Under the pieces are notes generated by a model, which searched no databases, was not told the origin of the DNA, and was given only the letters and a program-made list of their open reading frames with translations. Positions 43,131 through 47,809 of a stretch of 64,000 nucleotides of DNA are shown here, piece after piece; within the stretch, counting starts at the first letter, position 1; each line of letters begins with the position of its first letter. Source of the DNA: Dyella sp. OK004 (GTDB taxonomy: Bacteria > Pseudomonadota > Gammaproteobacteria > Xanthomonadales > Rhodanobacteraceae); the NCBI RefSeq assembly GCF_900114495.1, contig NZ_FOZI01000001.1:577469-641468 (forward strand), given 5' to 3'. The position numbers and the translations under genes were made by a program.

Positions 43131-43251
43131 TGCAGCATCCCCGTATGATGCGCAGTTCAGCAGGCCTGCAGCGCCAGCCGGCCAGACTGCCGGGCGGTAC
43201 ACAATTCAAGTACTAGGAAGTACACTTTTTGGACCCCAGCGGATCCCCTTG

Positions 43252-44088
43252 ATGCCGATGCAGCCCCTCATTCGACTTTCCCTGCGCTGCCTGCCGTTGC
43301 TGGCCGTGGCGCTTCTGGCCGGCTGCAGTATCGCCAAACCGCGCACAGACGATCCGCACGAGCAGTTCAACCGCAAGGTCTACGCCTTCAACGACTCAGT
43401 CGACAAGGCCGTGATCCGTCCAGTGGCCGTGGGCTACCGCAAGGTCACCAATCCACCGGTACGTCGTGCGGTGAGCGACTTCTTCACCAATATCCGCATG
43501 CCGATCACGGTGGCGAACGATCTGCTGCAGGCGCGCCCGATGCAGGCCGCGCGCAGCACCGGACGCTTCCTGGTCAACCTGACCCTGGGCGTCGGCGGCT
43601 TCTTTGACCCTGCCAGCCAGCTCGGCCTGCCGCTGGAAGACAACGATTTCGGTATCACCCTCGCCCGCTGGGGCGTACCTGAGGGCGATTTCCTGATGCT
43701 GCCCCTCATCGGCCCGACCACGGTGCGCGATGTATGGCGCCTCCCGGTGGACAGCTATTTCTTCGATCCACTGAGCTACTACTCGCGCAACCACAGCTTC
43801 AAGGCCGGTCAGTACTACCTGCCATCGATGCTGTACCTGGTCACGTTACGCGCACGTGCCATCGACGCGGAGAGCTTCCTGCAGTCGGCCTACGATCCGT
43901 ACGCATTCCTGCGTGACGCCTATCGCCAGCAGCGCATCTATCAGATCTACGACGGCAACCCGCCCACTGATGTGATCGAGCAGATGCAGGGCCTGAAGGA
44001 CAAGAACTTCGATCCCGAGGAACTGCTGGACGAGCAGCACAAATGGGAAAAGAGTCAGTCCGGGCAGCCGCAACCGACCAAGAACTGA
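43252..44088 (+). CDS. mlaA: MlaA-family outer-membrane lipoprotein
   Basis: A 278-residue MlaA/VacJ lipoprotein. The signal peptide ends in a lipobox (LLAGCS, Cys near residue 25). DPHEQFNRKVYAFNDSVDKA, SDFFTNIRMPITVANDLLQ, and GDFLMLPLIGPTTVRD form the characteristic ring-shaped domain that extracts phospholipids from the outer leaflet and passes them to MlaC. The frame starts with TTG 43249 directly before ATG 43252, and ATG 43258 is also possible. It converges on mlaFEDCB, so the whole Mla system is in one place. Confidence 0.94.
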   Translation: MPMQPLIRLSLRCLPLLAVALLAGCSIAKPRTDDPHEQFNRKVYAFNDSVDKAVIRPVAVGYRKVTNPPVRRAVSDFFTNIRMPITVANDLLQARPMQAARSTGRFLVNLTLGVGGFFDPASQLGLPLEDNDFGITLARWGVPEGDFLMLPLIGPTTVRDVWRLPVDSYFFDPLSYYSRNHSFKAGQYYLPSMLYLVTLRARAIDAESFLQSAYDPYAFLRDAYRQQRIYQIYDGNPPTDVIEQMQGLKDKNFDPEELLDEQHKWEKSQSGQPQPTKN

Positions 44089-44140: not shown

Positions 44141-44449
44141 CTACGCCAGCAGCGAATCCACCTCGCAGACCTGCGCCAGCACGCGCATGCCCTCGGGCAC
44201 GTTGCGCACGTGGAGCCGACGCCCCTGCTCTGCCGCCTTGGACAGCACCGCCAGCACGCAGGCCAGACCCGCACTGTCGCTATGCCGGATACCGGAGAGA
44301 TCGAGCTGCGTATGACCGTTGCCCGCCACGGCGGAGGTGATGGCCGACAGCGCATTCGCCGCCGTGACGAACGTCAGCGCACCGGATACGCTCAAGGTAT
44401 CCGGTGCCGCGGCATTCAACTGAAACGAGGCGCTGGCGGCGGTCGTCAT
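44141..44449 (-). CDS. mlaB: STAS-domain protein MlaB
   Basis: A 102-residue STAS-domain subunit that binds MlaF and stabilises the MlaFEDB transporter. The LDLSGIRHSDSAGLACVLAVL segment contains the conserved DSAGL turn of STAS domains. ATG 44449 shares one base with the mlaC stop (TGATG); a GTG directly before it at 44452 is an alternative. It is the last gene of the mlaFEDCB operon. Confidence 0.9.
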   Translation of the reverse strand: MTTAASASFQLNAAAPDTLSVSGALTFVTAANALSAITSAVAGNGHTQLDLSGIRHSDSAGLACVLAVLSKAAEQGRRLHVRNVPEGMRVLAQVCEVDSLLA

Positions 44450-45123
44450 CACTGCGCGGCCTTGCCGTCCTTTTCCAAGGTTTCCAGCGCCTTCGAGCCC
44501 TGGGTCTCCAGGTTCGTGATCAGCTTGTCGAGGCCCACCTTGCGGATCTCGGCGTCGACCTGGTTGCGATAATTGGTGACGTAGGAAATGCCTTCGATGA
44601 TCACGTCGTAAGCCTTCCAGTCGCCGCTGCGGCTCTTGCGGAAGGCATAATCCACGGCCACGGTCTTGCCGTCGTCCAGTACTACCTGGGTGCGCACCAC
44701 GGTGCGCTTGTCGTTGAGGTCGCCACTGAACGGCAGCACCTTTACGCGACCGCGCGTGTAGTTGACCAGACCCTCTGCATAGCGATGGGTGATGGAATTG
44801 TAGAAGGCCTTGGCAAAACGCTCGCGCTGCTGCGGCGAGGCGTCGCGGGCGTGCTGGCCAAGCACCAGGATCGACGCGTAATCAATGTCGAAGTGCGGCA
44901 GGAACACATCATCGATCACCGAGATCAGCTTCTCCTGATCCTTCTTCAGCTCGGCCTGATGGCCATCGATAGCATTGCCCAACTGATCGACGATGGTTTG
45001 CGCCACCTGCACGGGGGATTGCCCCGCAGCCGGCGTCTGCGCGGCGTTCTGAGCAAAAACCGGTGCGGCGACCACACCGCTGAAAGCGATGGCGGTGGCA
45101 AGAGCCAGACTACGCAACATCAT
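44449..45123 (-). CDS. mlaC: Periplasmic phospholipid-binding protein MlaC
   Basis: A 224-residue secreted Ttg2D/MlaC protein that shuttles phospholipids between MlaA and MlaD. It has a signal peptide (about residues 1-25, ending PVFAQ), then a helical/beta domain with VFLPHFDIDYASILVLG, FYNSITHRYAEGL and the C-terminal AYDVIIEGISYVTNYRNQV, which is strongly conserved. AGGAG lies six bases before ATG 45123. Confidence 0.95.
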   Translation of the reverse strand: MMLRSLALATAIAFSGVVAAPVFAQNAAQTPAAGQSPVQVAQTIVDQLGNAIDGHQAELKKDQEKLISVIDDVFLPHFDIDYASILVLGQHARDASPQQRERFAKAFYNSITHRYAEGLVNYTRGRVKVLPFSGDLNDKRTVVRTQVVLDDGKTVAVDYAFRKSRSGDWKAYDVIIEGISYVTNYRNQVDAEIRKVGLDKLITNLETQGSKALETLEKDGKAAQ

Positions 45124-45162: not shown

Positions 45163-46035
45163 TCAGTGCTTGCCAGCCGGGGGAGTGGTCGAACCGGAGT
45201 TGTCGGCAGGCTTCTTGTCGCTGGGCGAGCCATTGACCAGGAATTTGCCGATCAGGTCTTCGAGCTGCAGGGCCGACTGCGTCAACACCAACTCGTCACC
45301 GTTCTTGAGCATGTCCGGCGAGCCGCCGGGCTGGATCGCAACATACTGAGTACCGATCAAACCGCTGGTGAATACCGCCGCCGCCGAATCGTCGGGAATC
45401 TGGCTGTATTTCTTGTCGATCGCCAGCATCACCTCGGCGTCCAGCTTGACCGGGTCGGCCTTCACCGACTGCACGCTGCCGATCGCCACACCAGCCATCT
45501 TCACCGGCGCACCGATGGACAGCGCACCAACATTGGTGAAGCGCGCCTTGACCGTATAGCTGCCGGAGAGATTGTCCGCCGCGCCGCCAGCGCCGAAGAA
45601 CTTGCCGAGCATCTCTTCCAGCTGCTGCGCCGGACGGGTCAGCGCCAGCGTGCCGCCATCGGCCATGGTCTTTGCAGAACTGCCGTACTGGATACCCACG
45701 TACTGATCACCGAGCAGGCCACTGGTAAAGATCGTCGCCACGGAGTCGTCAGGAATCTTGTCGTAACGCTTGTCGATGGCCAGCTTGACGTCAGCCGTCT
45801 CCTTGCCCGGATCAAGCACGATCGACTGCACCTGACCAATGCGCACACCTGCCACCTTCACCGGCGCACGCTCCTTGAGCTGGCCGATGTTGGCGAAGTG
45901 CGCCTCCACCGTGTAGCTCGGGCCGCGGCTGGTGTTGGCGACCGACGTGGTCTGGGTGGCGAGATAGCCGAGCGCGGCAAAGCCGAGCACGATGAACAGG
46001 CCGGTGCCGACGGCATAGGATTGTCTCTGGCTCAC
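45163..46035 (-). CDS. mlaD: MlaD with two tandem MCE domains
   Basis: A 290-residue inner-membrane protein with one N-terminal helix (about residues 8-27). Two MCE domains follow: 41-118 and 160-237. They align along their whole length. APVKVAGVRIGQVQS pairs with APVKMAGVAIGSVQS. IPDDSVATIFTSGLLGDQYV pairs with IPDDSAAAVFTSGLIGTQYV. The E. coli protein has one such domain in about 183 residues. The linker and C-terminal tail contain a shared QQLEEMLGKF/LQLEDLIGKF segment, so the duplication includes it. MCE domains form hexameric rings, so this protein should give two stacked rings. The start is GTG 46035 with GAGG upstream. Confidence 0.94.
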   Translation of the reverse strand: MSQRQSYAVGTGLFIVLGFAALGYLATQTTSVANTSRGPSYTVEAHFANIGQLKERAPVKVAGVRIGQVQSIVLDPGKETADVKLAIDKRYDKIPDDSVATIFTSGLLGDQYVGIQYGSSAKTMADGGTLALTRPAQQLEEMLGKFFGAGGAADNLSGSYTVKARFTNVGALSIGAPVKMAGVAIGSVQSVKADPVKLDAEVMLAIDKKYSQIPDDSAAAVFTSGLIGTQYVAIQPGGSPDMLKNGDELVLTQSALQLEDLIGKFLVNGSPSDKKPADNSGSTTPPAGKH

Positions 46036-46084: not shown

Positions 46085-46858
46085 TCACATCAGGAACGCG
46101 GTGAGCACGAAATCGAGCGCCAGGATGGCGATCGACGAAGCGACGACGGTACGGGTAGTGGCATAGGCCACGCCCTCGCTGGTCGGCGGCGTGGTGTAAC
46201 CCTGGAACACGGCGATCAGCGAGACCACGACGCCAAACGCCACACTCTTCCACAGCACGCCATTGATCACGTCCTTCACCAGATCCACGGTCGCGGTCAT
46301 GTTCGACCAGAAGGTACCGTTGTCGATACCCAGCCAGCTCACGCCAACCAGATGACCGCCAAAGATGCCCAGCGCGCAAAACACACAGCACAGCAGCGGC
46401 ATGGCAATCACACCGGCGAGGAAGCGCGGCGCAACGACGTAGGCCATCGGGTCGACTGCCATCATTTCCATCGCGGCGATCTGGTCGGTGGCACGCATCA
46501 GGCCAATCTCCGCGGTCACCGACGTGCCCGCGCGACCGGCAAACAGCAGCGCCGTCACCACCGGACCCAATTCGCGGTAGATCGCGATGGCCACCACGGT
46601 GCCGGTAGCCGAGGTGCCGCCGAAGATCGACAGCACGTCATACAGCTGCAGCCCCAGCACCATGCCTACGAACAGACCGCAGACCATGATGATGATCAGG
46701 CTCATCGCACCGACGAACCAAAGCTGGCGCACGGTCTCGCGCACGTGCTTCAAGCTGCGCGGGACGGCAGCCAGAATCTGCAACAGGAACAGCGCGCAGT
46801 CGCCGATCTGGCTCAGCGATCGAATAACAATATTGTCGCGTGCCGGCTGCGCGCTCAT
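46085..46858 (-). CDS. mlaE: MlaE-family permease
   Basis: A 257-residue permease of the MlaFEDB complex. FVGMVLGLQLYDVLSIFGG, ELGPVVTALLFAGRAGTSVT, AEIGLMRATDQIAAMEMMAV and DPMAYVVAPRFLAG are hallmark stretches of the MlaE family. It has five to six helices. ATG 46858 overlaps the mlaF stop as ATGA and follows GGGGGG. The longer frame to 46957 only runs back into mlaF. Confidence 0.95.
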   Translation of the reverse strand: MSAQPARDNIVIRSLSQIGDCALFLLQILAAVPRSLKHVRETVRQLWFVGAMSLIIIMVCGLFVGMVLGLQLYDVLSIFGGTSATGTVVAIAIYRELGPVVTALLFAGRAGTSVTAEIGLMRATDQIAAMEMMAVDPMAYVVAPRFLAGVIAMPLLCCVFCALGIFGGHLVGVSWLGIDNGTFWSNMTATVDLVKDVINGVLWKSVAFGVVVSLIAVFQGYTTPPTSEGVAYATTRTVVASSIAILALDFVLTAFLM

Positions 46859-47688
46859 GCGCCCCCCTTGAAGCCAAGCGCGGCCGCGTAATCGCCCGCC
46901 GGATACTGGAACGGCACCGGGCCATCGGCCTCGCCACCGAAGAACTGCCGCGTCCACGGCGAACCATCGCTGGCGATGGTCTTGGGATCGCCATGCGCCA
47001 CCACTTTGCCGTTGGCGATCAGGTACACGTGATCCGCCACCTGCTGCACCGCCGCCAGCTCATGCGCTACCAGCACGCTGGTGATACCCAGGGTCTGGTT
47101 GAGCGTGCGGATCAGCTTGAGGACCTGGTTCAACGCAATCGGATCGAGACCGACAAACGGTTCGTCGTACAGAATCAACATGGGATCGAACACGATCGCA
47201 CGCGCCAGCGCCACGCGCCGCGCCATACCGCCAGAAAGCTCGCTCGGCATCAGCTTCGCGGCGCCGCGCAGGCCAACCGCCTGCAGCTTGGTCAACACGA
47301 TGTTGCGGATCAGTACTTCCGGCAGCTCGGTGTGCTGGCGCAGCGGAAACGCCACGTTCTCGAACACATCGAAGTCAGTCAGCAAAGCCGAGTTCTGGAA
47401 CAGGTAGCCGATGCGCTCGCGCAGCTCGAACAACTGCTCGCGACTCAGCGTCGCCACGTTCTCCCCATCCACCACCACCTCACCGACCTGGCCGCGCATC
47501 TGCCCGGTGATGTGCTTGAGCAGGGTGGTCTTGCCGGTACCGCTGGGGCCCATGATGGCGGTGACCTTGCCGCGCGGAATATCCAGATCCAGCGCATCGA
47601 AAATGGTCTTGCCGTTGAGCACCGTGGTCAGGCCACGGACGCGCACGATGGCGCTGTCATCGGGCTTGGCACGAACGGAGTCGGTCAT
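46855..47688 (-). CDS. mlaF: ATP-binding protein MlaF
   Basis: A 277-residue ABC ATPase. Walker A is GPSGTGKTT (residues 47-55), the ABC signature LSGGMARR is at 151-158, and Walker B LILYDE is at 171-176. The sequence MARR after LSGG is usual in MlaF. It drives phospholipid movement by MlaEDB. It is the first gene of the operon. ATG 47688 is chosen; the frame is open to 47718. The C-terminal tail (FFGGEADGPVPFQYPAGDY) is the extension that wraps to the partner ATPase. Confidence 0.95.
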   Translation of the reverse strand: MTDSVRAKPDDSAIVRVRGLTTVLNGKTIFDALDLDIPRGKVTAIMGPSGTGKTTLLKHITGQMRGQVGEVVVDGENVATLSREQLFELRERIGYLFQNSALLTDFDVFENVAFPLRQHTELPEVLIRNIVLTKLQAVGLRGAAKLMPSELSGGMARRVALARAIVFDPMLILYDEPFVGLDPIALNQVLKLIRTLNQTLGITSVLVAHELAAVQQVADHVYLIANGKVVAHGDPKTIASDGSPWTRQFFGGEADGPVPFQYPAGDYAAALGFKGGA

Positions 47689-47809
47689 GGGCGGAATGGC
47701 CAGTCGAAAGGCGATCAAAGTAGCCGAAGACGGCCCCGAAGGCTATGCGGGGCGCCGCTTTGCCGCTTGGCGCCGGTTCATGCGCACATACATCCGGACA
47801 TAAATCTCG

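Follow-up and report, generated by a model that had tools for sequence, protein, structure and literature searches.

MlaD of Escherichia coli and Pseudomonas aeruginosa, a component of the MlaFEDB transporter (e.g. PDB 6xbd, 7ch8), has a single MCE domain per chain and forms one hexameric ring. PqiB and LetB (YebT) are anchored single chains with three and seven consecutive MCE domains, respectively, and form stacked hexameric rings according to PMC12436622; they are paired with PqiA or LetA and work without an ATPase. Two MlaEF-type transporters also have an MCE component that is longer than E. coli MlaD, namely the Veillonella system with its elongated MlaD (PMC10665443) and the Mla-Pqi chimera with MpcD (PMC12436622); both lack MlaC, and a C-terminal beta-barrel or a helical needle accounts for the additional length. 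Isom et al. 2017 (PMC5561183) list MCE types with one, three and seven domains, other multi-MCE proteins being much rarer in Proteobacteria, and Grasekamp et al. 2023 (PMC10665443) confine the short MlaD to Proteobacteria.

Here we describe a MlaD from Dyella sp. OK004 that has two MCE domains per chain. It shares with the E. coli and P. aeruginosa proteins the N-terminal anchor, the MCE fold, the helix that follows it and the setting in an mla operon. Like PqiB and LetB it is an anchored chain with consecutive MCE domains, but it accompanies MlaFEB and MlaC, and unlike in Veillonella MlaD and MpcD its additional length is a second MCE domain in a system that has MlaC. It is a variant for which we found no description in the literature searched for the phrase "two MCE domains", although other wordings are possible and Supplementary Table S1 of PMC5561183 may list two-MCE entries. 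Among the best 20 of 255 papers from a literature search, which was mostly limited to papers outside subscription, none connected MlaD to Rhodanobacter, Dyella, Luteibacter or Frateuria.

Architecture of MlaD and its operon in Dyella sp. OK004

In the window (the whole 64-kb stretch of DNA that was analysed), mlaD occupies positions 45163-46035, as a sequence-only reading of the same DNA had it, and lies on the minus strand, with a GTG start codon at 46035 and the stop codon at 45163-45165. Its 290-aa product is a variant of MlaD, set apart from the standard protein by two PF02470 domains. This Pfam MlaD/MCE profile scores 144.1 bits on the entire protein (cut-off 25.1) in two stretches, residues 40-118 (45682-45918, 80.5 bits) and 159-237 (45325-45561, 72.1 bits); the sequence-only reading had placed the domains at residues 41-118 and 160-237 and had named a profile search as the check that could overturn their number, and this search finds two domains, not one. 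TIGR04430, the NCBIfam MlaD equivalog, also matches in two stretches with 286.1 bits against a cut-off of 135, and its best lone stretch, with 152 bits in the genome search, is by itself above this cut-off, while the generic MCE model TIGR00996 is barely passed (141.1 bits, cut-off 140.5). In the Foldseek alignments shown, a single OK004 domain is mostly 36-43% identical to MlaD of E. coli or P. aeruginosa. The MlaD of Dyella subtropica is 93% identical to that of OK004.

The two halves of the protein (residues 37-150 and 156-272) are identical at 63 of 111 positions (57%) in a gapless alignment with a BLASTP E-value of 1e-42, and their Smith-Waterman score of 308 compares with a mean of 29.4 (SD 5.6, maximum 66) in 1000 shuffles. 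The repeat extends to the helix behind each domain, which reads QLEEMLGKF in the first half and QLEDLIGKF in the second, as the sequence-only reading had noticed. At the DNA level the halves are only 68% identical (222/328, gaps included), hence the duplication is not recent.

From the N-terminus, the chain comprises a hydrophobic membrane helix at residues ~11-28 (45952-46005; modelled as a helix at 12-25 with low confidence), followed by MCE domain 1, which is probably proximal to the membrane. The beta6-beta7 loop of domain 1 (residues 117-131, 45643-45687) has diverged from that of single-domain MlaD. It is followed by a conserved helix at residues ~139-147 (45595-45621; modelled at 139-146) and by a Gly-rich linker of 11 residues, GAGGAADNLSG (148-158, 45562-45594), in which the confidence of the model is low. 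MCE domain 2 is probably distal to the membrane; its beta6-beta7 loop (residues 236-250, 45286-45330, PGGSPDMLKNGDELV) is as in single-domain MlaD and is the putative MlaC-docking loop. A modelled helix at residues 258-268 (45232-45264) and a polar tail complete the protein. An AlphaFold2 model of the monomer based on 28 sequences contains two MCE folds with a helix after each (mean pLDDT 62, pTM 0.38); most 10-residue blocks within the domains have pLDDT of 73-84, and the anchor, linker and tail are low. The model based on 44 sequences, five single-domain proteins included, was worse (pLDDT 40, pTM 0.31). A Foldseek search with the model returned chains of LetB, PqiB and MlaD, with rmsd of about 9-26 A in alignments that cover both domains, so that the relative placement of the domains is unreliable.

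The two-domain MlaD sits in an otherwise ordinary mlaFEDCB operon. Upstream of mlaD, on the same strand, lie mlaF, encoding the ATPase (46855-47718; PF00005, 105.1 bits; among NCBIfam models that of MlaF fits best, but its 352.8 bits fall short of the cut-off of 441), and mlaE, encoding the permease (46085-46858; NF033619, 357.4 bits, cut-off 315), whose ORF opens at 46957 and whose start probably lies at about 46858. Downstream follow mlaC for the periplasmic lipid carrier (44449-45123; PF05494, 160.8 bits) and mlaB for the STAS protein (44141-44452; PF13466, 52.2 bits), and past mlaB the outer-membrane lipoprotein gene mlaA (43249-44088, plus strand; PF04333, 224.6 bits) is convergent with the operon. 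All six components are thus within the window and reach their Pfam cut-offs, while among the neighbours of MlaD the NCBIfam cut-offs are reached by MlaE and missed by MlaF, MlaC, MlaB and MlaA. A PqiB-type identity of the protein was ruled out: the PqiB model NF008070 requires 525 bits and gives 25.7, mlaD is flanked by mlaE and mlaC instead of a PqiA/LetA gene, and there are two MCE domains, not three or seven. As side observations, 100 of the 127 loci fetched (repeats counted) have an mlaA match, so that mlaA seems to be commonly close to the operon in these bacteria, and OK004 encodes four more MCE domains elsewhere in its genome, of which a 314-aa frame contains one (C6:1078761-1078997) and a 563-aa frame three (C6:607174-608232).

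Distribution and origin of multi-domain MlaD

Among 117 genomes of Rhodanobacteraceae, the profile search gave two matches in 65, one match in 51 and none in one. Seventeen genera are entirely two-domain, nine entirely single-domain and none is mixed, i.e. the conserved two-domain clade that the sequence-only reading had named as a test of its proposal exists. In the 65 genomes, the frames that contain the best match are 283-349 aa long, and the adjacency of both matches in one frame is visible for part of these genomes. A scan of named genomes, biased to close relatives by its queries (peptide patterns of OK004 MlaD), yielded 46 loci, 41 of them two-domain (Dyella, Frateuria, Rhodanobacter and MAGs named to phylum level) and five single-domain, Rudaea and Tahibacter included. 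An artefact of a single assembly was ruled out, as 61 of the 123 loci with an mlaD match are two-domain (this number includes repeat fetches; 56 distinct domain pairs are left once identical ones are removed). So was, for Rhodanobacteraceae, the misreading of two mlaD genes as one: in each of the 61 loci a single open frame covers both domains.

In the order, 133 of the 200 genomes searched have a match, 105 with one and 28 with two, the latter all from Rhodanobacteraceae; a two-domain MlaD is therefore present in Xanthomonadales, where the sequence-only reading had sought it, but the order is too broad a unit. The class sample comprised 274 genomes, of which 228 gave a match; 22 of them, OK004 included, have at least two TIGR04430 matches. 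Three of the other 21 (G371, G385 and G541) have several domains per frame, and the remaining 18 (e.g. G303, G450) have separate single-domain matches at different sites in the genome; 17 of these 18 have two MlaD-type matches above the TIGR04430 cut-off. A second search of the class used a two-domain profile at E <= 1e-36 on 369 genomes, in a draw that overlaps the first sample. It matched 45, but only in OK004 and the same three genomes does an open frame contain a match to both domains; in the others one domain is matched, in some cases past a stop codon. A search of the phylum (398 genomes), at a threshold of E <= 1e-38 that may overlook distant two-domain forms, matched five genomes, of which two, both Rhodanobacteraceae, are two-domain. 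The two-domain form is thus a minority in the class sample, and did not turn out to be a standard form of gammaproteobacterial MlaD, either in these genomes or in the literature searched.

Beyond Rhodanobacteraceae, multi-MCE MlaD occurs in three further families of the class (f101, f160 and f115). The protein of G371 (f101) has 277 aa and two MCE domains. In f160, two MCE domains are present in G541, G654 and G655, while the other nine of 12 genomes have a single-domain match. In G385 (f115), a contig end cuts the gene off within its third domain, behind two others (L138, 4527-5552), and an overlapping piece at another contig end contains the last part of the middle domain and the whole of the last one (L139, 4489-4980); pieced together from these two contig ends, this MlaD apparently has three MCE domains. 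In G501, the other genome of the same order, TIGR04430 matches once, in a frame of 157 aa, and a search at E <= 1e-35 gave no match. In all three families mlaE adjoins the multi-MCE gene and mlaC lies within ~1.4 kb, as far as the contigs extend.

In order to trace the history of these proteins, we calculated trees of MlaE and MlaF combined and of the individual MCE domains, all for chosen subsets of loci. In the first MlaE-MlaF tree (40 rows, with four long-branched outgroup rows), the 22 two-domain rows of Rhodanobacteraceae fall on one side of a single branch (support 100/96), i.e. one change is sufficient. In the domain tree, domain 1 and domain 2 each cluster with 100/100 support, on stems of 0.71 and 0.39; single-domain Rhodanobacteraceae are represented there by only four rows, identical sequences under other locus identifiers having been dropped, and by ten in a later tree. 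The trees indicate that the two-domain form of Rhodanobacteraceae arose once: the MCE barrel and its following helix would have been duplicated in tandem in an ancestor of some members of the family. The nine domains from f160, whether first, last or single, cluster together (100/99), hence the duplication in that family was a separate one. In a second MlaE-MlaF tree (31 rows) the multi-domain state requires three changes, and a common origin of all multi-domain MlaD is rejected (AU p 2.3e-6). There f101 and f115 cluster (99/93), and with thin sampling these two may share one origin.

Conceivably, the duplication is neutral and the second domain leaves the working of the transporter unchanged, a reading in keeping with the ordinary genes around it. 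We consider it very improbable: the duplication is retained in all 65 sampled two-domain genomes from 17 genera, the two domains are reciprocally specialised (see below), and both are under purifying selection in the six pairs tested, with dN/dS of 0-0.20. The two-domain MlaD is a real, conserved and repeatedly evolved variant.

Residues retained in the first and last domains

Two contacts of E. coli MlaD served for orientation. PMC10245069 and PMC11289387 describe MlaC as pinched by the beta6-beta7 loop of MlaD (F118) and its central helices, and PMC7790496 describes Leu107 of the pore loop as contacting lipid on the MlaE side. We took the alignment columns that are at least 90% conserved in 36 single-domain MlaDs (including the unclassified MAG L043, placed there by similarity) and counted them as kept if conserved in at least 80% of the 56 first or 56 last domains of Rhodanobacteraceae. 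By Fisher tests, which treat the columns as independent, the N-terminal half shows a weak asymmetry, with 23 of 23 columns kept in the first domain versus 18 of 23 in the last (p 0.049). The loop and helix behind it differ far more, with 6 of 16 columns kept in the first domain and all 16 in the last (p 0.00025).

Two sites carry the same polarity in every lineage seen, although they were picked after viewing the alignment. An acidic residue directly after the pore loop SGLLG (Asp110 in OK004, 45706-45708) is present in 51 of 53 single domains and in all first domains (56/56 in Rhodanobacteraceae and 5/5 elsewhere), and is missing from all last domains (0/56 and 0/5) and from the one middle domain. 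Conversely, the column of E. coli F118 holds Gly in all 53 single and all last domains (56/56 and 5/5), but only in one of 56 and none of five first domains, and not in the middle one. These counts do not include the truncated third domain in L138 or the short initial fragment in L139. They represent only three to four independent lineages, because the 56 proteins of Rhodanobacteraceae stem from one event and three of the other five first domains belong to one family, and residue-level homology at the F118 column is approximate, because it holds Gly instead of Phe and the E. coli loop is longer. Position 108, the partner of E. coli Leu107, is Leu in 53/53 single and 61/61 first domains, and Ile in 55 of 56 last domains of Rhodanobacteraceae and three of five others. 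Taken together, the pattern of preserved residues suggests that an inner ring faces the membrane pump and an outer ring meets the lipid carrier.

Other candidate sites did not generalise. K54, R56 and R65 are kept by domain 1 and lost by domain 2 in Rhodanobacteraceae but behave inconsistently in other lineages, and the idea that they mark the membrane-proximal ring in general was rejected; the difference at Y117 is likewise inconsistent outside this family. Some last domains have SANLLG, STSIIG or STSLIG in place of the pore-loop motif SGLLG (L136 4142-4972, L137 4275-5126, L140 1489-2298, L141 1492-2301), a hint that the pore of the outer ring may differ.

The polarity bears on how the domains are arranged. 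It is conceivable that three MlaD chains form a single pseudo-hexameric ring with domains 1 and 2 in alternation, a tunnel one ring long and only three anchors around MlaE. Such a trimer would preserve six MCE domains per ring, and with the inter-domain geometry of the monomer model being unreliable, side-by-side domains are compatible with it. Both domains would then contact MlaE as well as MlaC, however, and a split of residues between top and bottom would be unexpected; moreover, the apparent three-MCE form of G385 (L138/L139) has the same polarity, the known multi-MCE proteins PqiB and LetB stack (PMC12436622), and just ~11 residues link the first helix to the next domain. We therefore regard the trimer as quite unlikely. 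Two stacked MCE rings are the best-supported inference, drawn from the polarised retention of residues.

Within a stack, domain 1 could be mainly a spacer or pedestal that lifts the MlaC-docking ring off the membrane, whether or not it closes into a lipid-conducting ring. In favour of this role, it has lost all but six of the 16 conserved loop and helix residues, and its stem in the domain tree is longer than that of domain 2 (0.71 vs 0.39). Against it, the pore loop with its acidic residue (SGLLGD, 105-110) and the helix residues L139, M142, L143, F146 and F147 of domain 1 are invariant in 28 aligned proteins, and dN/dS of this domain alone is 0.04-0.19 in the six pairs, so that a mere spacer seems unlikely, if slightly less so than the trimer.

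The most likely mechanism, and in our judgement a probable one, is a stacked double ring with split docking. The two-domain protein would serve an ordinary Mla phospholipid pathway as its functional MlaD; six chains would form a hexamer with two stacked MCE rings on MlaE, each ring with its own pore loop and helix, and the rings would enclose a continuous hydrophobic tunnel of roughly doubled length. Ring 1 would retain the features that face the membrane and MlaE, and ring 2 the loop and helix that dock MlaC; MlaC would exchange lipids with the outer ring, from or to which they would move between ring 2, ring 1 and MlaE.

MlaC docking and the meaning of a longer MlaD

The sequence-only reading had proposed that a second ring could change how MlaC docks. 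In this wording the proposal found no support. Domain 2 of MlaD retains all 16 conserved columns of the putative docking loop and helix, and on the side of MlaC none of the 16 docking positions listed is fixed differently between single-domain and two-domain taxa (36 and 55 rows of Rhodanobacteraceae). L76, L78, R153, E169, G170 and S172 (E. coli numbering) are alike in both groups, save for one Met at L76 and one gap among L76, L78, E169, G170 and S172 in the single-domain rows; R153 is Arg in 52 two-domain and 32 single-domain rows and His otherwise. Y82, I130 and R147 of E. coli MlaC are replaced equally in both groups. The lone MlaC column that passed the filter for fixed differences is a Gln versus a gap close to the N-terminus, and the aligned MlaC pieces average 219 versus 198 residues, partly an effect of BLAST ends. 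The MlaC-docking site of MlaD thus looks kept and shifted outward.

MlaC is perhaps not wholly unaffected. N179 is Asn in 54 of 55 two-domain versus 23 of 36 single-domain rows, and R186 is Arg in 47 of 55 versus 13 of 36. Both residues matter for binding in E. coli and have been tied to an "inward" docking state in PMC10245069; they may be under tighter constraint in the two-domain group.

More generally, we see an even chance that Mla systems have repeatedly lengthened the MlaD tunnel by copying the MCE domain within the gene, to two and once apparently to three, with docking split each time between a first ring for MlaE and a last ring for MlaC. If so, a Mla system of the shuttle type whose tunnel is partial would be a living step between the one-ring MlaD and bridge-type PqiB and LetB, and a conserved multi-ring MlaD that still uses MlaC would provide a natural test case for the relationship of shuttle and bridge systems. 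In such a protein one chain would separate the ring of the ABC transporter from the ring of the carrier, with predictions that can be made residue by residue, and the natural length variants would allow one to test how the length of the tunnel relates to the direction or rate of lipid transfer.
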